NCBI GenBank assembly: GCA_903813345.2 | Contig: CAIIXF020000008.1 | Coordinates: 31,086,867 to 31,150,866, forward strand | Length of the DNA stretch: 64,000 nt | Reading direction: 5' to 3' | DNA from: Owenia fusiformis | Lineage: Eukaryota > Annelida > Polychaeta > Sabellida > Oweniidae | Shown here: in pieces, positions 4,901-52,776 of the stretch | How the letters are laid out: every line of letters begins with the position of its first letter | How positions within the stretch are numbered: the stretch's first letter is position 1 | The notes under the pieces: generated by a model | Database searches by the model: none | Seen by the model: the letters and a program-made list of their open reading frames with translations, nothing else | Told to the model about the DNA's origin: nothing | Program-made: the position numbers and the translations under genes

Positions 4901-7900
4901 CTAGAATAAATATGTACCTTTGACTTTGAGATGACCTTGGCCCATAAACATTGACTTTGTCCTCAGGCCACCTAACCATGAGTCGCCAAGGACCATAGTA
5001 TCATTCAAGTGCTTTGATATTGACCTTTGACCTTGGAATGACCTTGTCAGATAAATGACCTTGACCCCAGGCCACTCAATCAAGGGTCACCAAGGGTCAT
5101 AACAGCCCACGGGATCTTGGAATGCCAAATACTTAGACATTGACCTTTGACCTCTGAATTACCTTGACTTCAGGTCACCTAATCATGGGTCGCCAAGGGT
5201 CACAGTAGCACTCAAGGTCCTTAAAATGCCCAAAACTTAGATATTCACTATTGACCTTAAAATGACCTTGAGCCATAAACATTCACCCACCTTGACCTCG
5301 GGTCACCTAATCATGGGTTGCCATGGGTCACAACAGCCCAAAAGTCCTTAAATCACCAAATACCTAGATGATGACCTTCGACCTAGGGATGACCTTGACC
5401 CCACTCACCTAATCATGGTCGCCAAGGGTCAAAGCAGCAGCCCCAAAATGCATCTAGAAGCTAAATACCAAGATATTGACTTTTGACCTTCGAATGACCT
5501 TGACCCCAAAATTTGACTTTGACCTCAGGTCACCAAATAATTGGTCATCGAGGGTCACATCACATCCAAATACCTAGATACTGAACTTTAACATTGGAAT
5601 GACCTCTGACCTTCATAGAATGCCAAGCATGAGGACCCAAGGTCAAGCGGTCTAGGAGGAGACAGATTGACAAACAGACCACCGTACGTGTTTTATAGTA
5701 AGAAGACGATGGAGTCAGTCTGCATCCTTACTATTACATTGTTCATCACATTTAATATTTCTGATGGAGTGTTTTGATTTCTGTTTTGATGCTGGTCTTA
5801 AGTTGTTCTAGGTCTCTTAGCTTGGGTTTAGCATAAAAATGGTCCTTCAAATAGCCTCAGAGAAAAAAGTGTGGTCCGTCAAATATGGTGAATAGGGAGG
5901 CCCTCACAATGTCTTATAGCCCCCCTATACAGAGAGGTCAGAGGTTCAAGAAACTGCATTGATTGGGAATTTAGTGTAGCCTTTGTTGTGTGTATCAATT
6001 TGAGACCACTGTGTTTTCATTTGGATATCCTTTGGTCTCCAGGCTAGCCTGCCTAACTCTGGAAGGTTACTCCTGAATCATTTGCCGATAATTGATCTGA
6101 TTATCTGTGTTTGTTCTGCCATTGTCATCCTCAAACATCTTTCTCTGTGCCTCTTTGAAGGAGTGTTTTAATGCTCATTCCAAGCAAAAAGACCTAGAAC
6201 AACTTAAGGGCGACATCCAAAGAGAAATCCAAAACATTCCACAGGAATTATTATCAAATGTGATGAACAATGTAGCAGTAAGGATACAGGCTGTCATCGA
6301 AATATAACGTTACATCGATTATGTGGTGTAAAAGGTAAAGGGTTAAAGCATAAAAAAGACAAGATTGAAATAAAAATGGTGTATTGGGGAGAAACCTTTC
6401 ATGTTTTGGCTGCATGACCATGCAAAAAATGTCTGAAAATATTGATTGGTTTATCTGTGCCCTTGATATACTTCTGGGTACAATTTTTGAGACACCCTGT
6501 ATAATATCAACATTTTGTTTTGTCAACCTCACCTTGTCTACGTAAGTATCATACACAGTATGGACCTCCTCTGGTGTTGTCTTAGGCTCTGTTTGACACG
6601 GGAGAACGCCATTAGACCCCGTCGCCAGGACCAAAACATCATATTTGACAGATTCACCATTTTCAAGGCTAATAGTTTTTGTATTCGTATCAATACCCGT
6701 GACTTTTCCAACCTTTAGTTTGTCCCCAAAGATATCTTTAAGGGGAATCGTGATTTTCTTTGCAAAACCTGAAAAGAATGAATGAAAATATAATAGGAAA
6801 CGAATAACGCTAAATACACGTTGGATAAGAGTATTTAACTTACCGTCAACCTGAAATGGAAGCACATTGGCGATCATGATACCGTGTTACTTCTGTCATC
6901 CTCATACATATTAGTTGTGCTCAGAAAGCTGTGAAAAGTGGTGAACACTTGAGACTCAATAACATATACAATATACATGTAACATATACCCATTATTACT
7001 TCATACGAGAGTGTAGTAATTCAGATACGATAAGTTTAACATTCTGATACTCATCAACTTCCTACCTTAAGCTTCAACTCGAAATTCTAGAAAGAAGCTG
7101 ATAAAAGGCAGTGATTTCATATAATAGGAATTTAAGCTTTTCGTACGTGTGCAATTGTGGTCAAATAGGAGTACATTCCCTACGTTATATGTCGTATTTG
7201 CTCGATTGAGTATAAAAGTAAAAGTAGAGTTAGTCCCTGGAAAATTAGTTGGATAATATAATAATCTCTTTGTGCCTTTATCTTACACGTACATATGCAC
7301 AAGTTCTATTATTTTAAAATGTATATGGCAGCTTATCTTCCTTAAGATTGTTATTGGCGTAATGAATTCCGGTGTGACTCCCATGACCGCCCTGCAACCT
7401 CACCATCATTTGAATGAATTGCGAGAAGAGGAATTGTTTTACAGGACTCGCGATTTGAACGGACTGTTGACGAACAGAATTAATCAAAAAATACATAGAA
7501 ATGGAAAAATTATTAATATTAGTTCACGATCCACGAACTTAAAGTGCTTAAAATTATGTTGCTGAAGGATTTATTCGACCCAAAGAATAATCACTCATTT
7601 TAACCAAACTTTGCCGTGCAGTTGACATACGAGTCAAATTATGAATATATCAAGTCTATATATAATATTTGTATTAGATGCACTTTGAATCGAGTCTAAT
7701 GAGGTTGTAAAATGTAGATATAAGCAGATATAAACACATGTAATGGTACAATCGTACATAAATACTAGACAGGTTCCAATTTCAGAATATCTCAAGGGAA
7801 AGGGTTTTTGAGGCATTTTTTAGAAAAAGCAACAGACCTATTTTTTCTGGATCAGTTTTTCATGCTGATAAAGATATTAGAAGATGACAGCTCAACGGGG

Positions 7901-27671: not shown

Positions 27672-29800
27672 TGTATTGTATTGTATATTTATTGCCTCAT
27701 TTATATTTGAGAATACATTTTAGTATAAATATGGTTTACATATAAAATATAATATACAAGGATAAAATTAAATTATGTGATAAAAAAGTTGTTGTTTTGG
27801 AAAACATAAAATAAAGTGATAGAGAAATTATGTGTCAAGCAGAGCCTGCGATTGTACATTTTGTGTACAAATGATGATACATTTATTAACGTCTCACATG
27901 AAACATCTGAAAGACCTAAAACTTTCTTCATAATAACATTCATACTGTCACCACGACAGCCAAGGGCTTCAAATATGTTATGCCTATATGACTCATACAT
28001 AGGGCATCTTAATATAAAATGTTCAATTGTTTCAGTTTCACAGAGGTTACACAATATACATCGTTTTGAACCATTGAGGTTGTTCGTATTTAATACATGG
28101 GCGTTACATATCAATTGCATCATAGTTTTACACTGGCTTGGACATTTGGGATATTTCTGACAAATCAACCACCATATGCAAGGTTTTAAGTGTGTGACAT
28201 AGTCACGTAGGTATAAAAGTTTGCCATAACATGAGCATTGCAAGAAAAATTGCCTGACCTCTACGGATCTTACAGCATTGAAAATTTGCAGTCTCCATGA
28301 CCTCTTCGACGGAAGATATCCAGAGTCCAGCGCATTTTTAACCAGATTTTCGATTCCTAGCATTTTAATTGGTAAAAGGAAAATGCACCGGATAGGAGAG
28401 AAAACATCGGCATGGTTGTCATAAGTGACATGAAACATCTCTACTAACCGTGTTATAGTTATATCCCTGTAAATATTATTAAACCTAAGTAAACTCCAGA
28501 GATACATCATCTGCAACACTGTAATATAGCCGTCTACTGACAACCATCCCAACGGCATCGTTGCACTAGGATTGGCCGTCGTTTTGGGGAAAAATTGGAT
28601 AGGTTTGCCAATCTCCGATCCCTATGAGTCATTTCAAGCTTTTCAACATCTGACGCTTGGTAATTTATAACTGGTACACCAAACAGCATGGTTGGAATAG
28701 AAAAGGCCCAGTACAGTTTTGATACTGTTAAGGGTGACAAACCACCTGATTTGTGCCCCAGTCCCAAAAGTGAGCAGAATTTTCGCTTACCACTAGTGCA
28801 GCGATCATTAACATATTGTGAGATATCATTTTTACTAGAAATTGGAATACCAACATGAACAGTGAAATTGACCTTTGGAATTCTCGTGTCACCTATTTTG
28901 AGGACGACATGACCTTTAACACTTGTATCAGTGACCATATCATTAAATGTCAGAAAGTTACATTTCGCTGGATGGATTTCATATCGCCATCTTCTACTAT
29001 GTTCAAAGGCAGTGTTTAACATAAGTTGCATATCCTTTTGATTTATGACAATAATGGTCATGTCATCCGCATAAGAAGGACATACACAATTTACATCATC
29101 AATGTGGCCACCTATATTCATTTCACATAGATCCTGAATAAGGTCAGCCATGTACAACTGATAAAATAGCATAGATAGAACACCCCCTTGGTGGATGCCC
29201 TGCATGACATTAAAAGGTTTAGAAAGTGTATTTGAACTTCCTACACGAACGGCACATTCATATTTATGGTAATTATCATAAAGCATACGCCACAGTTTGC
29301 CATGGATACCAAGTTTATGTAGTTTAACCATCAATCCATCTAACCAAACGGTGCTTTTCTTATATCTAATGTGGCTAATATTACATTTCTATGCTTTTCG
29401 ACATTGTGAGCAATGGTTTCCTGAACTAAAAGGGAAGTATGAACAGCAGAGCAATGACTCTGAGAAGCACCTTGTAAGTTAGGCTTAATATTTTTTGCAA
29501 GGGATCCAATTCTTTTTAACACCATATGATCGTACCCTTTACGCAACATGTTCATCAGAGTGATGCCTCTGGAATTGTCTTTATTACAAGGATCTTTATT
29601 TCCTGCCTTTTGTATAGGTATCAGTATACCAGACCTAAAATTCATGGGAGTGTATTCGTTTAACATGGTTGCATTAAAAAGGGTACATATGATCGAAATT
29701 ACAGTGTCATTACTATATTTTAAATGTTCAGCACATATCGTATCCGATCCACATTCCACATGCACGATTATTATGCAACCGTGATATGGCATTACTCACT
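27672..29800 (-). mobile_element. 5'-truncated, broken LINE (non-LTR retrotransposon)
   Basis: Minus strand, three open stretches in different frames. 29340-29792 has SDTICAEHLKYS and LATLDIRKA (early reverse transcriptase). 28534-29334 has GIHQGGVLS, PSYADDMTII (the catalytic A/YADD core) and the thumb. 27773-28558 has the C-terminal zinc-like CILCNLCETETIEHFI. Frameshifts lie near 29335 (just after DIRKA) and near 28590. No endonuclease was found, so the copy is 5'-truncated. The 3' end runs into ATACAATACAATACAATC near 27672, a short tandem tail as seen in CR1/Jockey-like LINEs. Clade uncertain. Confidence 0.85.
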
Positions 29801-32532: not shown

Positions 32533-33650
32533 ATTAATTTTGACCAATCAAATAAGAGATGCTGATAGTTTAAGAATCAATATAAAGAAAGTATTTTTTA
32601 CATATTGTGTTGCCAAAATGAGAGCATTTCCTTGAACTTATTGATCGATGTGTACTTTAACTGTTTTGAAGGAAAGAATGGCTCGTGATTGTGTTCTCAA
32701 TGGTATTTATTTGTACGATAATCACGGGTAGGTTTCGTGATTGATGTAATCGACCATACTCACAGGTATCATCCATGCCTAGATTTTATCCGATCATACA
32801 TCGGTCATGCGTTTCTCTCCAAAACTTGATTTTCTTCAATTTTTGAGAAATTGACAGAAAAAGTTATTATTCACTTTTAACCCCTATTCCCCACGTAAAA
32901 CCAATCATCGCAATAAAATGCGTAACGAATTATATTTCCACATTTATTAACTAATGTACAACTCAAATGGAATTGTATTCATTTATGTGACATTTCATCT
33001 ATCGATGAAGCCATGCAAAGCAAAGAATTGTACATTAAAGTATAGATTATCTATTTTGTAAGCTTTCTATTTGTTGATATTATGCATTGATTTGTCTTTG
33101 TTGCGTATTAACTCATCATTTGATGACTCATCACTCGGCGATTATTGCGACTGGAATTGCCTCGGTTCAGTTTAGATGCCACGAAGTGAGATGATCAAAA
33201 GAACGTGAAAATATGAATTTTAAAATGTAAATATCTGCCGAATAAACAAATATGTTTGCCAAATAAATTTATTTAGCAAAAAATGGGAAATAAACTGTAT
33301 ATCATACCAGTGTAGCAAAAAAGTGTATATTGGACTATTGTTTTTGCGTTACATTATATCATGAAACATATAACATGAAATAATCTCTCATTATCTAGTA
33401 ATTCACCACTTGTGGCTTCTGGTGGATTAAGGGAATGATTAATGGTAAGTGAAGAACTTATCCAGATTAACCAAGAATGTCTTCAATATTGGGGAGTAAG
33501 TCCACGTATTGGACCGTGGCGAAAGCGAATGTGTTGATTGGCTGAAAACTGACAATATGCGAACGCTTTATCGGTGAATTTACGACCGTGGGAGCGTTTC
33601 TGATAGTGCGTTCGCCATTGGACTAAACTAAACTACAATAAACCACCACG
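32533..33650. other. Intergenic and GPCR upstream region
   Basis: AT-rich, no long open frame. The bases before the GPCR start (ACCACCACG-ATG) give a usable initiation context. No core promoter element can be called with confidence. Confidence 0.3.
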
Positions 33651-34601
33651 ATGACAAATGCAACGGGTGCCGCACCAATATCAGTTTTAGTTCCATTTTC
33701 AGTATTAAACAGCGTCATCATCACTATAGGTATAATTAGCAACGTTATTGTAATAACTTCTATTTTGGCGTTTAAAAAACTTAGGAATGGTCCGAACATA
33801 TTTGTTGTTAGTCTCTGTGTGGCAGATCTGCTTTTGGTGATATCCGGTACAACTGCAGTGCACAATAGACTCAATGGGCGACTTATGTTTAACGAGTTTG
33901 GATGCGGCTTTAGTGCTGTTCTTGGACAAGTTTGCTTCGCATCAATTCTTATTAACATTGGCACGGTGGCATTGAATAGATGGATCACGATCAAACATAG
34001 CATGGGGAGATTGCGATTCATGTTATCTCCAAAAGCCATAGCGGTACAGCTTGTGATTATATGGACTTTCGTTTTTGGTATTTACACGCCAATCATTCAA
34101 CCCAGCATGCACCATTATAGTCCGAGATTTTTCTTTTGTGTCCTAAAAACGAAAGACAATGAAATATATTCCTTCGTCGCAGGAATTGGAGTGTCATTGA
34201 TCTTTAATACTCTAACCATTGTCTGCTATGCCGATATCTTTCTCCTTGTCAGGAAAAGTAGAAAACAAACGAAAACAGATACTCAACTTGTGCAAACAAA
34301 AGATATCCAATTATTGAAACAATTCATGGTTATATACATCTCATTTTATGTTTTGTATATTCCAGGTACATTACTTTTCTTTATAGATACTGACGTATAT
34401 CTTATTGATCAGATTTCTATGATACTAACTGCCTTGACCTTTGTGGTTAACCCGTTGATCTATGTGTACTATAACGGCACAGCCAGGGCACTTATAAAGT
34501 CGGCGGTGTGCGGCGTTTGCCCATGTGTCTCTGATCAAAATAGGGTAATCACCATAGAAGTAAGCCAGACTCAGACCAATACTGTTGATATACGTGGCTA
34601 A
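33651..34601 (+). CDS. Class A (rhodopsin-like) orphan G-protein coupled receptor, single exon
   Basis: 316 codons, intronless, start ATG 33651. The N-terminus has one N-glycosylation site (NAT at residue 3). The seven membrane segments are at about residues 12-36 (with SNVIV, the TM1 Asn), 48-72 (SLCVADLLL, the TM2 Asp), 80-106, 128-148 (TM4 Trp), 173-200, 221-243 and 250-273. TM3 ends in NRW where most of the family has DRY. TM7 has NPLIY (NPxxY). Cys residues at the top of TM3 (FGCGF) and in loop 2 (FFFCVL) can form the usual disulfide. TM6 has FYVLYIPG and lacks the CWxP toggle. Tail cysteines (CGVCPCVS) could be palmitoylated. The short 316-aa length and small loops suggest a peptide- or amine-like orphan; the ligand is unknown. 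It resembles moody/melatonin-like invertebrate receptors only in general outline. Confidence 0.88.
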   Translation: MTNATGAAPISVLVPFSVLNSVIITIGIISNVIVITSILAFKKLRNGPNIFVVSLCVADLLLVISGTTAVHNRLNGRLMFNEFGCGFSAVLGQVCFASILINIGTVALNRWITIKHSMGRLRFMLSPKAIAVQLVIIWTFVFGIYTPIIQPSMHHYSPRFFFCVLKTKDNEIYSFVAGIGVSLIFNTLTIVCYADIFLLVRKSRKQTKTDTQLVQTKDIQLLKQFMVIYISFYVLYIPGTLLFFIDTDVYLIDQISMILTALTFVVNPLIYVYYNGTARALIKSAVCGVCPCVSDQNRVITIEVSQTQTNTVDIRG

Positions 34602-40349: not shown

Positions 40350-43300
40350 TCACACGGCAGTCCCTTTCCGGCCTTGTTTCTTTTTTGAACCTTTAGGTTT
40401 TCTTCGTAACCCCTTTATTACATTTATCAATTTCGATGGTTTTAGCTTTGACAAAACATTTTCACCTTGTCCCATTATGCATAAAGGGTACTCCTCATCG
40501 ATATTTTCTATTTCCTCTGCTGTTGTTTCGATCGCGAATTTTGCTGTTTCTTTGAGTTTCTCCAAAGTTAGAATCCTTTCGCTGAATCCAGATTTTTGCT
40601 CTTTCTTTTCTGAATCGATAACTCGGTCAATGTAGTCGGAAAATGGATCCTCGCGATTATGAACTGTTTTCACAAATACCTCAACTCTTTCCCTTAGCTT
40701 ATTCAACTCTTGGATGCGTTCCATGTATCCTGGTTTGCATTCGGCCTTCTCCGCCTCAATCATCAGGTCGATGTAGTCTAGTGTTGAAAGTGGGTTAGGT
40801 TTAAGTGCAATTTTATTGATGTACTCGGTTGCACGTCTCATTTCGTCGGTTAGTAACAGTGTGTTGAGTTGATGTTCATTGAAGTCATCTTGTAGACTTT
40901 TGATCAATTTATCAACCGTCAGCTTATCATGCACACCCTTTTGGTAGCGTTCCTTTAACTCCTTTGATGTTTTTGTCACCTTCTTACGTTGGATCGTCAT
41001 AATGAACGGCATGTTTCTGTGACTCTTCCAATGACAATGCTGGGGGCAAACCGTACAATTACCCGTTTCCCGATCCATTACTGTACACTTCCATTTCATT
41101 TCGTCATCCGCTTTCGTGCAAACAACATGGCAGGTTCTATTGCACGTCAAACAGTTGGTTGTGAATTTCCCTGGTTCTGCATCTTTCTTGACAATCTTCT
41201 CTTCCATTACTGTATAGCGAAATTCCTTGTTGGCAGCTATCTCAGCTTCGTATATAGCCACAACCTTCAGTTCGTTCGTCAAGTTTTCTAGCTTGTTCAA
41301 ACCTAGCTTGATATCTTCGCACATTTTTAATAGAAGAAGCTCCAATTGGTGTCTCTCTGTCAGAACCGCCTTTGTCAGTGTCAGACTCTTCGAGTCTAGG
41401 CTTCCAAGAGTATCAAAGAATGATTTGAAACTCTTTTCTCCCATTTCCCAAAACATCTTGTTGAAAGCTTCATTCTCGGCATCATTTCCTTTCTCTGCAA
41501 AAACAGCTGAATTGTTGAACTTCAAGTAGGCTGAATATTCAAACCCAGCCTTTTCTATTCCGCTAAGAACTTGTGGTTTCTGACCATCTGCAAATGTAAG
41601 CAGCATTAAGATGTTATCTTTGATATCCTTTCCGAACAAGGAAAGTATCTTGTCAAAAATGTATATTTGGGTCGGAGTTAATCTGGGTAATGACGACTGG
41701 GTGACGAAACCAACAGCTTCTATGTGATCCAGGCCATCGGCATCAATCGAAGTGAAAAATTCCCGTATCTGTCGTGTAATCTGTTCGTCTCTGCTGTACC
41801 CCTTCGTATCACCAAATCCTGGCGTGTCAATAATTGTGACAGTGTAAGGAACCTTTAGCCCCTTTTGGTGATAGACCGTATATGAGGTTATTGACTTTGT
41901 TTGACTCTCCGATTGATCGCAACCGAGTTTTTCAGGTATAAGTTTTAGCCTTTCTGTGTCTTCCCATTTGATGCCAAACAAGTAGTTGATCATTCCATTA
42001 ATGAGAGTGCTTTTACCAGCTCCTGTAGCGCCTACAATCATAATAACTTTTTCCGACACGGACTCCGATACAAGATTAGGTGCACCATACTGGTACTTTT
42101 TTATCATCCCATCATCACTCTCAAAGGTTGACTCAATCTTGATCTGGTGAACTATTTGGTTTCCTAGACACTCGGATGTAGATGTTTCAAGAACTCTGGC
42201 TTTTACGATTTCATCTGCTGTTGCGCTAATCGTTATTGGATCACTCGCCTTGCTGAAATCTCCCGTTGTATCACCCTCATAATGTGCTATAACGGCAAAT
42301 ATGTAGGTATTATTTGGAGGCACTGCCAATGCTGTCTCTTCGTGCGACGTTGAATCATCTTCAGAGGCAGGAATAGACATTGTCTGCCAGAAGGCTGAAT
42401 TTGAATCTTTCCATCTGAGTGTGTACGAGCAGACTTTAAAAGATGAACGTATTTCCGGTGCTGCCCATTTTAGACCTACTCGGATTGGAGAGACCTTCCA
42501 CACTTCTGGTTTGCCAGGATCTGTACTTGCCGTCACTCCACTACCTTGTGTTTCCATTTGACTAACTTCCATTGACTCAAATTTATCTGTCATATTCTCC
42601 TTTGCCTCTTTTGTTTCTTGTTTTGTAACAGCATCATAAAACATATCCATGTCCTCATCATTTTCGACATGCGTTTGTTTCTGCAATGCTAAAAATTCAG
42701 AAGCTGTAGGAAGAACAACATTTTTAGACAAAGAATCATATACACTGTTTTCAAAACCTGAGCCAGATGGCTTCACATTAACACCACCTAACTCAAAGTC
42801 CATTCCTGTATCATTAAGGTCGTCTTCTGCCATTTTGATGTTAATAGGATCCACACCATGTCCATTAACATCGATCATTTCAGCTGTATTTAACCGACTA
42901 CTAGCTCCCTGGTCATCGTTTTCATTCGAATCTGGCGGTGTTACATCTACACCGGCATCTAGAAATAAATATGATAAATATCATATTAAGTTGATATTTA
43001 CAAACTTTATCGTGTTCATTAATTTAGTGATACGATTTGAAGAACATAAACTAGGAAGCAATACAGGGTAGTCCAAAAAAATGGGACACTCGTATTTCAA
43101 AAATAAACATTGATTTTATTGATAAAAACATGTTATATACCGGTGCATAGGGAATCTAATCATCTTTAATTCGGTATATCATAAGTTTATCACAGTACAT
43201 ATCAAAATGGAGGAAGATTGAACATATGTTTCTGTTGACAAAAAAACTTGGTTTTGGCAAGTTTTTGAATAACCGTTTTTAAATGAACATGACGCCATTT

Positions 43301-45980
43301 GTATTATGGACGCTGGTTGACAGGCATTATAATAAATTTGAACTTATGATATACCAAATTAAAGATAATTAAATTCCCTATCCACTGGTATATAATATAT
43401 GTTTTCATCAATAAAATCAATATTTATTTTTGAAATACGAGTGTCCCATTTTTGGACCACCCTGTTTACAGACGCTGATATTCGTAAACTAAAGTATAGC
43501 AAATTCTCCTTATGTTGTATGCTCTGGATACATGTATGTGATAGTTGACTGGGGTTTGAAGTTCATTCCCTGGCCAATGCGATATGGTGTGTGTGTATGT
43601 GCAATTGTACATTATTGCATGAATTTGGATATGTTGTGTTTTTTTTCTTTACAATGTTATGTTGTATTTTGGAAATATGATAAGCAATGCCCTGAAATAG
43701 GTTATTCGTACTATGACTTTACTCACCTTTAAGCGCTTGTATAAGACTAGCATCTATCGTTAACTTAACATCAATCTCCTTTCCACGATATTTTTCCTTC
43801 ATTTCATCAGTGAGGAGTGCATCCACCAGGGTCTTTGTTAATTCCCCACTGTGGAAATCCTTGATCAGGTTTTTGGCTTTCTCTTTGTCAGTTACATCCA
43901 ACTGAAGAACGATTGAACCTTGTTTGACATTAAATAATGCCATTCCACAACCACTCAGAACTTCTTCCAAGCGCTTCTTGTTCTCTCTCGAGGATTCAAT
44001 TACGTCGATGGCCTCTTTCTCAACGGGTTGCACATTTACTTCAGCCTCAATTGGAGGGTTATCCCCAACTCGCAGTTTAATGTGCATATTCACTGGACCT
44101 TGAGAAAACAGGGAATATCCAATTTACATACTTTTTCCAATACAATTCAATTTCATTCTTTATTGATTAAAATATAATTACAGGTCATACACCCCCTACC
44201 ATAGGTTTGACAACATGTTGACATCTGCTAATGTTTGTCGATATTAAAACATTGATCAATATTTTCATCCGAAATACCACAATGTATGATGTGAACGAAA
44301 TAAAGATTCAAACATTAAGGTTGTCATTTGTAGACTTCCGGTTGCCAAATTTGTTGTTGGGAGTGTAACACCATACAGTATGAACATTGGCATTTTTAAA
44401 TAAAAGAAGGAGTGCATTTTCAAACTTTGCTACTTTGTATATTATCATTAACTACAGTAGTCTTCTGTAAAGCCATAAGCACTGGGGATGCCTGGTATCA
44501 AAATGGCCGCAATGAAAAATGAGCATTGGTAAGATTTTTTTCTGTACTTTTGTCCTTCAAATTACAACGAGAAAATTGATTTGTAAATATCTCAGCAATG
44601 ACGGATTAATTTCTAAGTTGTAATCATATTTTAAAACCAAACCTTACGAACTATTTACCTGCAAAATATCTAGTTGTAATAGATAAAAAGCACGAAAATC
44701 GTGAAAAGGAAAAATGTTGCAAAATGCTCCTTTTCATTCGTGGTCATTTTGATACGAGGCAAAACCTCCCTCGTTTCCAGTTTATCCCCAGTGATAAGCC
44801 CGACGATTAAAGAAGAGTACATCTTTTGATTAACCAAAGTTATAATAAATTATAATGTTAAACAAGGCATAAACATGCGAAATGTCAGAGCCTGTCATTT
44901 GTTGCAGACGCCGAACACCAACCGCCAAACACCAACCGTCAAACACCGTCCGGTATAAAGTTGGAGACTAGCAATATGTCACAACTTCAGGTGGTGACAT
45001 AAAAATTACATAAAATAATCTTTATTTTCAGTACATCTATTTAGATGTATAGAAATAAAGATTATTTTTGGGATACATGGGCGATCATGGGACCTCTTGA
45101 GTCAATTGCAAAATCTCGTGAAGTCGCACGGGATGTTAAATCTTTGGATGTCATACTGTACCCTACTGATGTACGTAGGGCTTATACCAAGGTGGGATGC
45201 AATGTCTACATACCTCTTAAATCTCTGATGTTTATCAGGGACACATTTGGGCTGTAGACTATTTTGTTATCGGATCCAATTTGGACATTTCTGCATTGCT
45301 CCAGGTTATTGGCACATTCTGCTTCTTAAATAAAAAGTAAATAATTACAAAAACAACAAAACCCTCATCTCATTGACAAAACATGCGTGTTTTAATGGTT
45401 AAAATATCATTCTTAAAAATTTGAAATCCGTCAAACGATTTTGTAACCTTTGGTATTTTTACATTCGGCAGTCTAATTCATATTTATTTGTCTACATATA
45501 ACATTGATATAAACTACTAAACTACTTACGATTAGTTTTCGCCTGTTTTTCAGGAACGTTTTCGGGTTCTGGATCCCTAGTTTCCTGTGGACCATCAACG
45601 ACGCGCCCGTTCAATCGTCGTTTCTTTCGATTCATCACCGTTTGGGCAACTTTCGATACATTTTCACAGTGTGTTACAAGTGACTGTTCAAGGAACTCAG
45701 CAATGTGTCCATGATTGATTTTAAGTACGTCCACAAACTTGTCAAAACCCGTACGTCCATTCTCCCCTATTATATCGATCAGCTCACCACATTGATCTTC
45801 TGCAGTTTCCTTTGTGACAATTTTCCTCTCTGATTGTTGTTTTGTGATGACTTCGTAATCTATACATCGCTGAAGTATGTGCCCCATTTCGATAGCTAAT
45901 CCTTCTATGATCATGTTCCTACACGCTCGCAGGACCTCTTTATGGATTACTGACACCTCGACAGTGGTCATCACTAGCAT
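40350..45980 (-). CDS. CARD / TRADD-N-like / FN3 / AIG1-like GTPase multidomain protein (candidate innate immune signalling GTPase)
   Basis: Three coding exons: 45530-45980, 43727-44098 and 40350-42958. Donors C|GTAAGT and G|GTGAGT, acceptors CTCAAG and TTCTAG, all phase 1; 3432 nt including the stop, about 1143 aa, no break. Exon 1 is a CARD (residues about 5-100; helix pattern with ILQRCIDYEVIT and GRTGFDKFVDVL). Exon 2 resembles the TRADD N-terminal-like domain (GSIVLQLDV, SGELTKTLVDALLTDEM). Exon 3 starts with an acidic linker, then FN3 (about 422-521; PEVWKVSPIRVGLKWAAP, YTLRWK), then a GTPase: P-loop GATGAGKST (about 584-592), DTPGFGD (about 652-658) and LTFADG in place of N/TKxD (about 728). 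A Cys/His cluster (about 877-921; CLTCNRTCHVVC, CTVCPQHCH), helices and a polybasic tail (KPKGSKKKQGRK) follow. By family analogy the CARD recruits a partner and the GTPase acts as a switch or oligomer; this is inference. The start could be Met1 or Met4. Confidence 0.88.
43064..43464. mobile_element. mariner-type MITE in intron 2 of the CARD-GTPase gene
   Basis: Inverted ends CAGGGTAGTCCAAAAAAATG and CATTTTTGGACCACCCTG. The inversion extends over about 130 bp on each side (GACACTCGTATTTCAAAAAT, TTATTGATAAAAACATG). TA precedes the left end; the right TA is not intact. The CAGGGTGGTCCAAAA-type terminus is typical of Tc1/mariner relatives. Non-coding. Confidence 0.75.
44480..44793. mobile_element. 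MITE in intron 1 of the CARD-GTPase gene, ATAAG target duplication
   Basis: The ends are CACTGGGGAT and ATCCCCAGTG. ATAAG flanks both sides (44475-44479 and 44794-44798). Sub-terminal blocks CCTGGTATCAAAATGGCCGC and TGGTCATTTTGATACGAGG are also inverted. Non-coding, 314 bp. Confidence 0.75.
44866..45008. repeat. Dispersed repeat, copy 2 (intron 1 of the CARD-GTPase gene)
   Basis: Same family as 23361-23523: ACAAGGCATAAACATGCGAA, CATTTGTTGCAGACGCC, tandem AACACCAACCG(C/T)C units, and the terminal AATATGTCACAACTTCAGG / GTGACATAAAAA block. The short AACACCAACC run varies in unit number between the two copies. Confidence 0.6.
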
Positions 45981-46800
45981 GTGACGTCAAACGCCTTTTT
46001 AAAATCTGGAATTCAAATTAAACGGATTGTATATCATATTATTCTTTTTTGCTACAGTTCAAAGGTAATATATACATTTTAACAACTCTAGTTTCTACAT
46101 TTTTTGTAATGAAATGTTAAATTATATTTCAATTTTTGTCAATGTTAAATATATGAATTGACTATCTTATGTCAATATCCCTATCACGAGATATAGTGAA
46201 CCTATTTCATCTAAATCAAGCATCTGGATTTTAAATAATGCGCCATGCAAACTAATTTTAAGTAATTAACTCAATAGAGATCTAAAATGTATTCTTCCTA
46301 TGTACATTATATATAACTTGTAGTTATTAACATTCCCCGTCTGAGTTGGTTTCATCCACGCCAAATACACAATTTGTATGGCGTACTTTTACATGATCTA
46401 AAAAATATAATATGAGCCTTGGCCAGGATGCCTGTACATCTAGTTAGGCATTACTTATCTCAGGGCAAGATGACACAACGTATCTCAAAACTGCCAATGT
46501 AAAAAATATAAACACTTATCTTGGAGTACTTTACCTCATAGCAAATAAATTATACCTAGTTCATATATATTCTTATCCCCTATATTCTATCGTAAATGTT
46601 TTTTGCACAGACTATACCAAAACACTTGAAGACTTATTTACATGGTCCTAAAATGTTGAATTAATCTAACCAAACATTATAATCCATTTTCCTCGTAGGA
46701 TTTAGATATGTAAGCACCGGTGTCAAAGTAGGCAACCTTACAACTTTAGAGATCACCAGAAAGTTTGTTACCATGACATTGTCCTATGAGACGTGATACT
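45981..46800. other. Upstream region of the CARD-GTPase gene
   Basis: No supported gene. The promoter must lie here or further up if 5' UTR exons exist. I can call no core element with confidence. Confidence 0.25.
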
Positions 46801-49749: not shown

Positions 49750-49830
49750 ACAACTACAACAAGCTAAAATACAAATATTTCAAAATTCGAAATTCACAAT
49801 TTAAATTGTGAAGACAGCAATTAATTGAAA

Positions 49831-52776
49831 ATGAGTTTTGAGGTTGAGACATTTTTAGGATCGCCCTCTTTGGAGGAATTTGACAGTTTAAAGAAAACTG
49901 AACTTCTGGCACTAGCAAAACATGTTGGTTTGGCAGTAAAAACTTCATACCGAAAAGGTGCAATAAAAAATATTCTGGTGCCATATTTGGTAGCGGAAGA
50001 AATATTACCAGAAGAAGCATTAAAGCTTACTGTAGAGCCAACCCAGCATGTTGATCCTACTGAATTTCAACAGCAATTACAAATGAGAGAGCTTGAACTC
50101 AAATTACAAAATGAAATGAGAGAAAAAGAATTAGAATTGCAAAATGAAAAGGAAATAAGATTAAGAGAACAAGAAACAAGATTAAGAGAACAAGAAATTC
50201 AAAAAGAAAAAGAAGTTGAATTAAAACGTCTTGAGATAGAAGCTCAATCCAAAACTGAGGAACATGCTACTATGCATCAACATTTTGAAAATAGGTTTGA
50301 CGCTTCAAAATTTCTCAAATTTGTTCCTAAATTTCAAGAGAAAAATGTTGATAAATACTTTACACATTTTGAAAAGGTTGCTCAGAGCCTAGACTGGCCT
50401 AAATCTGCATGGCCAGTTATGCTCCAGAGTGTATTCATTGGTAAAGCAAGTGAAATATTTGCCTCTCTCTCAGGAGAAGTATGCTCTGATTATGACCTAG
50501 TTAAAAATGCAATTCTTAAAGCTTATGAACTAGTACCAGAAGCTTACAGACAAAAATTTAGAAATGCCCACAAACAGAGTGACCAAACCCATGTTGAGTT
50601 TGCTCGAGAGCAAGAGCAGCTTTTTGACAGGTGGCTTGTCTCTAAGGATGTATCTGAAGAATTTAAAAAGCTCAGAGAGCTTATGCTAATAGAACAATTT
50701 AAAAACTGTGTTCAGTATCACATTAGAACTTACTTAGATGAACACAAGGTAGAAACTTTAAGTCAAGCTGCCACCCTGTCTGATGATTATGCTCTTACTC
50801 ATAAGGGTAGTTTTATCAAGGGCAATCCTAACTTTAGAGGTTATCAAGGTAACAAACCTTCATATGATACAAAATCAAATCAGTCCTCATCATCAAATAC
50901 ATCAAACAAAGCAAAAGACCAGTCTAATTCATCACAGAGCTCTAGCTCAAAATCAGATCAATCAAATTCTTCAGGTCCAAAATCAAATGTCACCTGTAAC
51001 TATTGTAAAAAGCCTGGTCATCTTATTTCTGAATGCTATAGGATTAAGAATAGAAGAGAGATGTCTGGTTCTGCTCATTCAAATGGTTGTGCTACAGTTC
51101 CCATTTCAAGAAAGCCCATTGTTTGGGATTCATATACTCATACTGAGAAATCAACTCATAGTGATATTATGGAGGATTATAAGCCTTTCATGTCGGAAGG
51201 ATCTATGTCACTGTCAAGTGATGGTACCAATTCAAAGCCAATTAAGATTCTTAGAGACACGGGTGCATCTCAGACCTTGTTGTTAGATGGTGTCCTTCCT
51301 TTATCTGAGGAGTCATTCACAGGTACCCATATTTTGATGCAAGGCATTGAATTAAGTTTTACTAAAGTTCCCCTCCATCGTATTCATATCACATCAGAGT
51401 TAGTCAAAGGGCCAGTTATTGTTGGTGTTAGGCCACAACTTCCTGTTGAAGGAGTCGCATTGCTTTTAGGCAATGATTTAGCTGGGGGTAAGGTATCGTT
51501 AGACCCGATTGTCTCAGATCAGCCTTGTTCTATCGAGGATTCTGTCCAAGAGGACTCTGATATATATCCTGCTTGTGCTGTTACTAGGGCTATGGCTAAA
51601 AGGTTAGCTGATAGCGGGGATTCGTCTGTGGGAGATGACTTTGATAGTGGGTTTTTAAGCTCCTTGTTTGATGATGAATGTCACTCACCACTTGTTAAAG
51701 ATGGTCCTTATCCTATTTTAAAGGCAAATTCTTCATTGAAACAGCCTATTGTTCAAGCCAAGCAGCGATCTAATGAGGCATATTCTTCATTGAAAAAGCC
51801 TATTGCCAGGGGTGATTCACCTTCTGAGCAGGATCACTATTTTAATGCGGTTTCGCCCGCTCTTGCTAGTTCTGATGAAGTTTCATCTTCTTCTGCTAGT
51901 GTTCATGAGGTTTCATCCCCTCCTTGTTCTGAGGTTTCATCCTCTTCTAGTTCTGAGGTTTCATCCTCTATTTCTGATAGTGATTCTTTGAAAAATGATC
52001 CTCATTCAAAACACATGTTAATTTATGAACAAGAGCATGATCCATCACTCATTGATCTTCATAAAAGATGTCTTACTATTGATGAAGCTGCCAAGGTCCC
52101 TGTTTGTTTCTACAAAAAGGATGGCATATTAATGCGAAAGTGGAGACCCCCTGAAGCTTCCCCTGAAGATGATTGGACAATTGTACATCAAATTGTTGTC
52201 CCCAAATCGTATCATAAGGAAATATTGAGTCTAGCTCATGATTCTCCCATGGCAGGTCATTTAGGAGTAACTAAAACATACCATAAAATACTCAATCATT
52301 TCTATTGGCCCGAATTAAAACAAGATGTCCAAGAGTATTGTAGGTCATGTCATACATGTCAAATGGTAGGGAAACCTAACCAGAAAATCTCAATTGCTCC
52401 TTTACAACTTATACCTGCATTTGATGAACCATTCAGTAAGGTTCTTATTGACTGTGTTGGTCCATTACCAAAAACAAAATCTGATAATCAATATCTGATC
52501 ACTATTCTGTCTATGGCCACACAGTTTCTAGAAATAAAATCACACCTTATGCTTAGAAATAACAAAACCAAGTATATTGTGAAATCACAAATCAACAATT
52601 CCACATTAGTTGAGCTACCAAAGGAGCTCATATCTGACTTACAATCTAACTCAGTGCTGAATGATTTCATTTGCATTGATAGAACTACTCATGTGAGGTG
52701 TAGAGAGCTACACATGATGAAAAAGTATGTTGAGCGTGATAAAATTTCTTTACTCAACATGAGCTTGTGCTCTTAG
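49831..52776 (+). CDS. Gag-pol-type open frame of the LTR element (fossil)
   Basis: About 981 codons from ATG 49831. Parts in order: a SAP-like N-terminal segment, a long charged coiled coil (RLREQETRLREQ), a capsid/SCAN-like helical region, a CCHC zinc knuckle (CNYCKKPGHLISEC), an aspartic protease motif (DTGAS), a serine-rich spacer, and the H2C2 zinc module plus the start of an integrase core (HLGVTKTYHKI, CRSCHTCQ). This order of parts is that of Ty3/Gypsy elements. It does not hold the whole pol set, so it is a non-autonomous relic. No host function is implied. Confidence 0.85.
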   Translation: MSFEVETFLGSPSLEEFDSLKKTELLALAKHVGLAVKTSYRKGAIKNILVPYLVAEEILPEEALKLTVEPTQHVDPTEFQQQLQMRELELKLQNEMREKELELQNEKEIRLREQETRLREQEIQKEKEVELKRLEIEAQSKTEEHATMHQHFENRFDASKFLKFVPKFQEKNVDKYFTHFEKVAQSLDWPKSAWPVMLQSVFIGKASEIFASLSGEVCSDYDLVKNAILKAYELVPEAYRQKFRNAHKQSDQTHVEFAREQEQLFDRWLVSKDVSEEFKKLRELMLIEQFKNCVQYHIRTYLDEHKVETLSQAATLSDDYALTHKGSFIKGNPNFRGYQGNKPSYDTKSNQSSSSNTSNKAKDQSNSSQSSSSKSDQSNSSGPKSNVTCNYCKKPGHLISECYRIKNRREMSGSAHSNGCATVPISRKPIVWDSYTHTEKSTHSDIMEDYKPFMSEGSMSLSSDGTNSKPIKILRDTGASQTLLLDGVLPLSEESFTGTHILMQGIELSFTKVPLHRIHITSELVKGPVIVGVRPQLPVEGVALLLGNDLAGGKVSLDPIVSDQPCSIEDSVQEDSDIYPACAVTRAMAKRLADSGDSSVGDDFDSGFLSSLFDDECHSPLVKDGPYPILKANSSLKQPIVQAKQRSNEAYSSLKKPIARGDSPSEQDHYFNAVSPALASSDEVSSSSASVHEVSSPPCSEVSSSSSSEVSSSISDSDSLKNDPHSKHMLIYEQEHDPSLIDLHKRCLTIDEAAKVPVCFYKKDGILMRKWRPPEASPEDDWTIVHQIVVPKSYHKEILSLAHDSPMAGHLGVTKTYHKILNHFYWPELKQDVQEYCRSCHTCQMVGKPNQKISIAPLQLIPAFDEPFSKVLIDCVGPLPKTKSDNQYLITILSMATQFLEIKSHLMLRNNKTKYIVKSQINNSTLVELPKELISDLQSNSVLNDFICIDRTTHVRCRELHMMKKYVERDKISLLNMSLCS

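Follow-up and report, generated by a model that had tools for sequence, protein, structure and literature searches.

The locus and its gene model

The window, that is, the whole 64,000-nucleotide stretch of annelid DNA analyzed here, carries on its minus strand three exons (Table 1) whose spliced frame encodes 1143 amino acids with zero inner stops. The initial annotation had read these as three in-phase exons of one gene, for a protein combining a CARD, a TRADD-N-like domain, an FN3 domain and an AIG1-like GTPase. The coordinates, the phase 1 junctions and the GT/AG borders were all as it had claimed, and profile searches confirmed both the CARD and the GTPase. Other features of the window include a rhodopsin-type GPCR, two frames related to retroelements and a frame weakly similar to oxidoreductases, which we take to be perhaps an AIF/FSP1-like exon. 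Neither Rfam families nor tRNAs were detected in the window. On contig C6 of the genome, three clustered matches to the erythrocruorin linker family (E 5e-7 to 5e-4, one with an inner stop), a family not known outside annelids, are in keeping with the annelid source.

Table 1. Features discussed in the text. Positions refer to the window unless a contig is named.
Feature	Position	Strand	Content or basis
Exon 1	45530..45980	-	Start codon, CARD, charged linker; 150 codons + 1 base; phase-1 donor GTAAGT
CARD domain (PF00619)	45681..45938	-	Pfam match, 40.9 bits
Intron 1	44099..45529	-	GT...AG, phase 1
Exon 2	43727..44098	-	TRADD-N-like domain; symmetric phase 1-1; donor G/GTGAGT
Intron 2	42959..43726	-	GT...AG, phase 1; holds terminal-inverted-repeat element
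Inverted-repeat element	about 43064-43467		Probably a small DNA transposon
Exon 3	40350..42958	-	Linker, FN3, AIG1/septin-clade GTPase, Cys/His cluster, helical tail, stop codon
FN3-like domain	42207..42530	-	Alignment to paralogues; family matches fn3 and titin FN3
GTPase domain	41571..42044	-	AIG1 (PF04548) match; motifs GATGAGKST, DTPGFGD, TFAD
Cys/His cluster	41019..41153	-	C602, C605, C609, C634, C637, C641, H646 of exon 3 invariant in 10/10 rows
Polybasic C-terminal tail	40353..40457	-	Net charge +13 over last 35 residues
Rhodopsin-type GPCR	33642-34601	+	7tm_1, 96.3 bits; one open frame
Retrotransposon-like frame	49825-52776	+	SCAN match and integrase zinc-binding domain
Reverse transcriptase fragment	28534-29388	-	RVT_1, 60.5 bits
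Pyridine nucleotide-disulphide oxidoreductase	6254-6886	-	Weak match under cut-off
L053 frame	Locus L053 (contig JADGEA010000215.1), 1237-4392	+	1052 codons, intronless

The open frame of exon 1 starts two codons ahead of its ATG and is directly preceded by an in-frame stop, so that the CARD is N-terminal, barring an unseen upstream start. One base ahead of the start codon, at 45982-45989, lies the octamer TGACGTCA, which we assume to be CRE/ATF-like and which may be there by chance. GC content stands at 0.43 for exon 1, at 0.42 for exon 2 and at 0.38-0.44 over the linker that opens exon 3, and falls to 0.34 in intron 1 and 0.30 in intron 2; the shift from intron 2 to the linker coincides with the exon 3 acceptor. 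The arms of the inverted-repeat element in intron 2 measure 63 nt (92%) and 64 nt (88%). We infer, from the sequence, that splicing joins the three exons.

The same DNA may also be read as two neighboring genes: a short CARD-TRADD-N protein ending after exon 2 (...ALKGE-stop) and a single-exon FN3-GTPase protein translated from an ATG inside exon 3. A stop does lie directly past exon 2, intron 2 holds poly-A-like signals by which a transcript could end after exon 2, and in six of ten relatives of exon 3 elsewhere in the genome (L011, L013-L017), read by eye, an ATG lies in a single open frame no more than about 30 residues from the FN3. However, all 12 aligned members of the exon-2 family keep a phase-1 donor in frame after the domain (GGT plus AAA, AAG or GAG) while the sequence past that donor is not kept, and the exon 3 acceptor is in the matching phase, at the point where GC content shifts. 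We regard two separate genes as unlikely and discuss the locus below as one gene.

The CARD and TRADD-N-like exons

Exon 1 exceeds the curated PF00619 cut-off of 23.9 bits and covers profile positions 2-85 of 85. Genome-wide, 38 CARD matches are listed, this one included, in searches which covered 498 Mb on 525 contigs. In the same genome, at 16.97-17.02 Mb of contig C3, frames of 665, 758 and 799 aa were observed, each with two tandem CARD matches.

Exon 2 had been named TRADD-N-like, a description that survives at the level of the family but falls short by the score of the window copy: against Pfam TRADD-like_N, exon 2 reached 17.3 bits (E 0.004) where the cut-off is 23.7. That shortfall would also suit some other small alpha/beta adaptor domain with a Death fold on one side and an effector on the other, as would the failure of the family consensus to match either TRADD-like_N or TRADD_N. 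Yet no other family is matched by as many members as TRADD-like_N, found at E<=1 in five of the 12 aligned (best 5.3e-4, estimated at about 20 bits); TRADD_N was matched by a single member (E 0.15). Other weak Pfam matches of exon 2 were to RsmJ and DinI.

An invariant serine, placed by a model in a strand turn, points towards TRADD-N. Ser61 is invariant in all 12 aligned members, preceded by a residue that varies (Gly in five), and a single-sequence model of the exon (pLDDT 76.5, pTM 0.62), which runs two strands, helices, two strands, helices and strand, places it at the turn between strands 52-58 and 61-68. The 'uS' motif of TRADD-N is likewise described in PMC8195603 as a conserved small-Ser motif at the turn that links the middle strands; TRADD-N structures as such have an RRM-like beta-alpha-beta-beta-alpha-beta fold. 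Foldseek returned no match to this model at E<=0.001 among 468, and no TRADD in the 50 listed, a result that sits as well with a different adaptor fold; the top matches were unrelated, none of them significant.

A profile of the exon-2 family was also aligned with the TRADD-N of a DEDD2-like locus from the same genome, itself scoring 49.1 bits with TRADD-like_N. The match scored 23.9 with the Gly-Ser motif in register, a value reached by none of 150 shuffles (best 19.1), and six of six unrelated pieces of the window protein scored 14.8 or less. The hhalign probability of this match, however, is 8-10%, a further point for an adaptor domain of another kind. No match was found with same-genome NCOA6, in a piece picked by ORF start which may miss the domain. 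Both the one PDB match of the family profile (E 0.87) and the weak NCBIfam/PADLOC matches of exons 1 and 2 (best E 0.00068) were taken as chance. On balance exon 2 is likely, though not proven, to be a TRADD-N domain, and a non-TRADD-N adaptor appears to us quite improbable.

Relatives of exon 2 as possible phase-1 modules

At least 12 relatives of exon 2 occur elsewhere in the genome; the alignment used above comprises the window copy and 11 of them, L028/L042 being excluded as it adjoins a run of N. The members are not all independent, since L047 shares 96% identity with L048, L040 84-88% with both, and L043 85% with L046. Ten of 12 relatives sit on small contigs (C235, C45, C48, C112, C116, C407, C523) and some may therefore be alleles; the group may represent either a repeat-rich immune cluster or allelic copies. 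Frames resembling integrases, reverse transcriptases or transposases were seen by eye in loci L037, L038 and L047.

Ahead of the domain, a phase-1 AG candidate was present in 11 of the 12 aligned members (L046 is cut short there), but such AGs are common by chance and carry little weight. A Death-domain exon lies upstream on the same strand in at least six of 12 fetched loci of about 10 kb each (L037, L039, L040, L043, L045 and L048), which speaks against a non-TRADD-N adaptor. Among the Death exons inspected, four of five start after a phase-1 AG and all five have a phase-1 GT candidate past the domain, some of these weak. A CARD near an exon-2 module was found in the window only, among the matches listed. 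Given their shared phase-1 splice signals, the TRADD-N exon and the exons with a CARD or a Death domain appear to be phase-1 modules that can stand in for one another.

The FN3-GTPase exon and its family

The GTPase of exon 3 scores above the Pfam cut-offs for AIG1 (37.0 bits, cut-off 27), Septin (32.9 bits, cut-off 26.2) and MMR_HSR1 (28.2 bits, cut-off 21.9). Its P-loop, DTPG and TFAD motifs are invariant in all ten aligned family rows, placing it in the AIG1/GIMAP-septin clade; the solved G domains matched by the family at E<=0.01 were septins, with no GIMAP among them. NCBIfam/PADLOC searches of the exon returned weak P-loop or GTPase matches and nothing specific.

For the FN3 domain that the initial annotation had placed ahead of the GTPase, the support comes from paralogues and not from the window copy, which has no Pfam fn3 match at E<=1. 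The fn3 model matches three of the ten family rows, best at 1.6e-8 on an extra first FN3 of L011, with which the window domain aligns at 31% identity. The family profile, moreover, matches titin FN3 domains, and the FN3 region is occupied in nine of the ten rows.

Downstream of the GTPase, the Cys/His cluster forms a putative zinc site and is followed by predicted helices, taken from a model of low quality; this single-sequence model of exon 3 (730 residues, pLDDT 35) was otherwise discarded. The last 35 residues carry a net charge of +8 to +13 in six of the ten family rows, the window included, and of +5, +1, -5 and -10 in the other four. At E<=1, Pfam matches included no NACHT in exon 3 and no LRR, WD or ankyrin repeats in any of the three exons.

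Exon 3 has at least ten relatives elsewhere in its own genome, at 42-61% identity, one of them with two inner stops and another (L019) lacking the FN3 region. Within 50 kb of any of the ten, no CARD, Death or exon-2 match is listed, and the nearest listed CARD is about 84 kb off and on the opposite strand; the upstream DNA examined came to about 1.5 kb for each relative, plus 4 kb for one. Only the window copy, among the matches listed, lies near CARD or Death and exon-2 modules.

This single occurrence of the combination in the genome, together with the transposon-like element in intron 2, might indicate a recent fusion without function, in which the exons are aligned but the joined gene is neither expressed nor selected. 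Exon 3, however, runs for 868 codons without a stop and keeps the invariant GTPase and Cys/His positions, and the CARD and the splice sites are intact. We consider such a non-functional fusion very improbable.

A relative of exon 3 on a bacterial contig

Among genome contigs, one relative of exon 3 emerged from the 593 pattern matches listed. It lies on a 6585-base contig of a Flavobacteriaceae MAG, which may be mis-binned (L053; Table 1), and over 512 aligned residues its protein is 40% identical to residues 261-770 of exon 3, a span that takes in the GTPase, the Cys/His cluster and the helices. Its long N-terminus is without a Pfam match, and the protein has no CARD, TRADD-N or fn3 match. 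The frame is followed by a second, partial copy, and a PIN-domain gene is nearby.

Among 395 Bacteroidota genomes, with two candidates scored per genome, 62 gave a match at E<=0.001, and 61 of these were short stretches around the P-loop of about 17-22 bits. With a long match in one genome out of 395, the L053 gene is thus not typical of the phylum. No relatives of the GTPase block were found in viral contigs, phages or plasmids. In a tree of ten rows which included the bacterial protein, six of eight inner branches lacked resolution.

A possible mechanism and origin

Tentatively, and at somewhat less than an even chance, we read the locus as one gene whose product is a cytosolic adaptor-GTPase belonging to the 'Death-fold + TRADD-N + effector' class of invertebrates, acting and arising in the manner proposed here. 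What the sequence itself offers is the domain order in line, the intact GTPase motifs, the Cys/His cluster, the polybasic tail and the matching phase-1 signals. For the use of GTP, for assembly, for membrane binding and for partners, we go by analogy with CARD, TRADD, septin and GIMAP proteins.

On infection or damage, the AIG1/septin-type GTPase would bind GTP and assemble with itself, perhaps at a membrane reached via the basic tail, and the FN3 domain may serve as an arm for recognition or for assembly. Once assembled, the GTPase would crowd the N-terminal CARDs and so nucleate a CARD filament, which may recruit CARD partners such as caspases. TRADD is known to bind TRAF MATH domains, and by analogy the TRADD-N-like domain may provide an adaptor surface linking the assembly to NF-kB-type signaling. 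The output would be death or NF-kB-type signaling, started by the clustered CARD and TRADD-N domains.

The initial annotation had envisaged a GTP-regulated platform working like an NLR, its NACHT replaced by a GTPase. A GTP-switched platform is a reasonable supposition, but the likeness to NLRs is limited: like NLR inflammasome proteins, the window protein joins a CARD and a P-loop NTPase in a single chain, yet its GTPase belongs to the AIG1/septin clade and is followed by a Cys/His cluster, predicted helices and a polybasic tail instead of a repeat sensor. In a stricter version, a ligand would relieve autoinhibition of the GTPase and the protein would close into an inflammasome-like wheel. 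That version draws on the N-terminal CARD with its central P-loop NTPase, and on PMC8195603, which states that in bacteria the STAND NTPase of such systems can give way to NTPase domains of other kinds. It is poorly matched by Pfam searches in which neither a NACHT nor a repeat sensor appeared. Members of the AIG1/septin clade, moreover, are known for linear assemblies of paired G domains, not for AAA+ wheels. The NLR-like sensor therefore seems to us an improbable account, and a GTPase assembly that clusters CARDs is the one we retain.

As to origin, the gene most likely stems from the joining of two exons, a phase-1 exon with the CARD and a phase 1-1 exon with the TRADD-N domain, to one member of the dispersed FN3-GTPase family. 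A wider and rather doubtful possibility is that the locus samples a modular defense repertoire, in which Death-fold and TRADD-N domains on symmetric phase-1 exons are shuffled onto effectors. In the window, the effector would be an FN3-GTPase whose family also has a bacterial member. The result would be a self-contained 'GTPase coat plus CARD', able to convert GTP-driven assembly into CARD signaling with no separate adaptor. If real, such a protein would make GTP-driven clustering and CARD signaling testable in a single chain that holds two adaptor modules and an assembling GTPase.

Comparison with known systems

The initial annotation had held that this architecture is not well described. The exact combination of CARD, TRADD-N, FN3 and AIG1 GTPase indeed did not turn up among the open-licence papers listed, but close kin have been published. 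The nearest are the proteins of Kaur et al. 2021 (PMC8195603), whose main text describes Death-like and TRADD-N constant regions followed by variable effectors, AIG-GTPases included, in oysters and other animals. The window protein shares with them an N-terminal Death-fold, a probable TRADD-N and then a variable C-terminus able to hold an AIG-GTPase, as well as a setting of lineage-specific expansion with varied architectures. It differs from the oyster AIG-GTPase proteins, as the main text presents them, in having a CARD where DED is named; those proteins also begin with an extracellular and a membrane segment. A receptor-type protein as in oysters is unlikely here, given the stop just 5' of the ATG and the absence of a membrane segment by eye. 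The terms 'FN3', 'FNIII', 'fibronectin', 'annelid', 'exon' and 'intron' are all absent from that main text; its figures or source data could hold the combination.

A second close parallel is found in the snail Biomphalaria glabrata, for which PMC7053062 reports CARD-AIG1 genes. In Bg8770, for example, a CARD stands ahead of an AIG1 GTPase in one gene, as in the window. These genes differ in having a coiled coil and sometimes an ARM fold, and 'TRADD', 'FN3', 'FNIII' and 'fibronectin' do not occur in the main text of that paper. On the bacterial side, PMC7159879 links TRADD-N to FNIII domains and places AIG-type GTPase effectors in another type of system.

In its G-domain sequence the window protein resembles the GIMAP/AIG1 and septin GTPases, both Pfam models being passed and septins being the nearest solved structures. 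To these it adds the N-terminal CARD, TRADD-N-like and FN3 domains, the Cys/His cluster and the basic tail, and its G4 position reads TFAD.

So far as we have seen, then, the class is already published, in the Death-like, TRADD-N and AIG proteins of oysters and the CARD and AIG1 proteins of the snail, and the present combination is a variant of it. At least part of the architectural variety of the class is attributed to retrotransposition in the main text of PMC8195603; symmetric phase-1 exons would offer a checkable exon-shuffling route to the same variety, and the annelid host adds a phylum to those named there.
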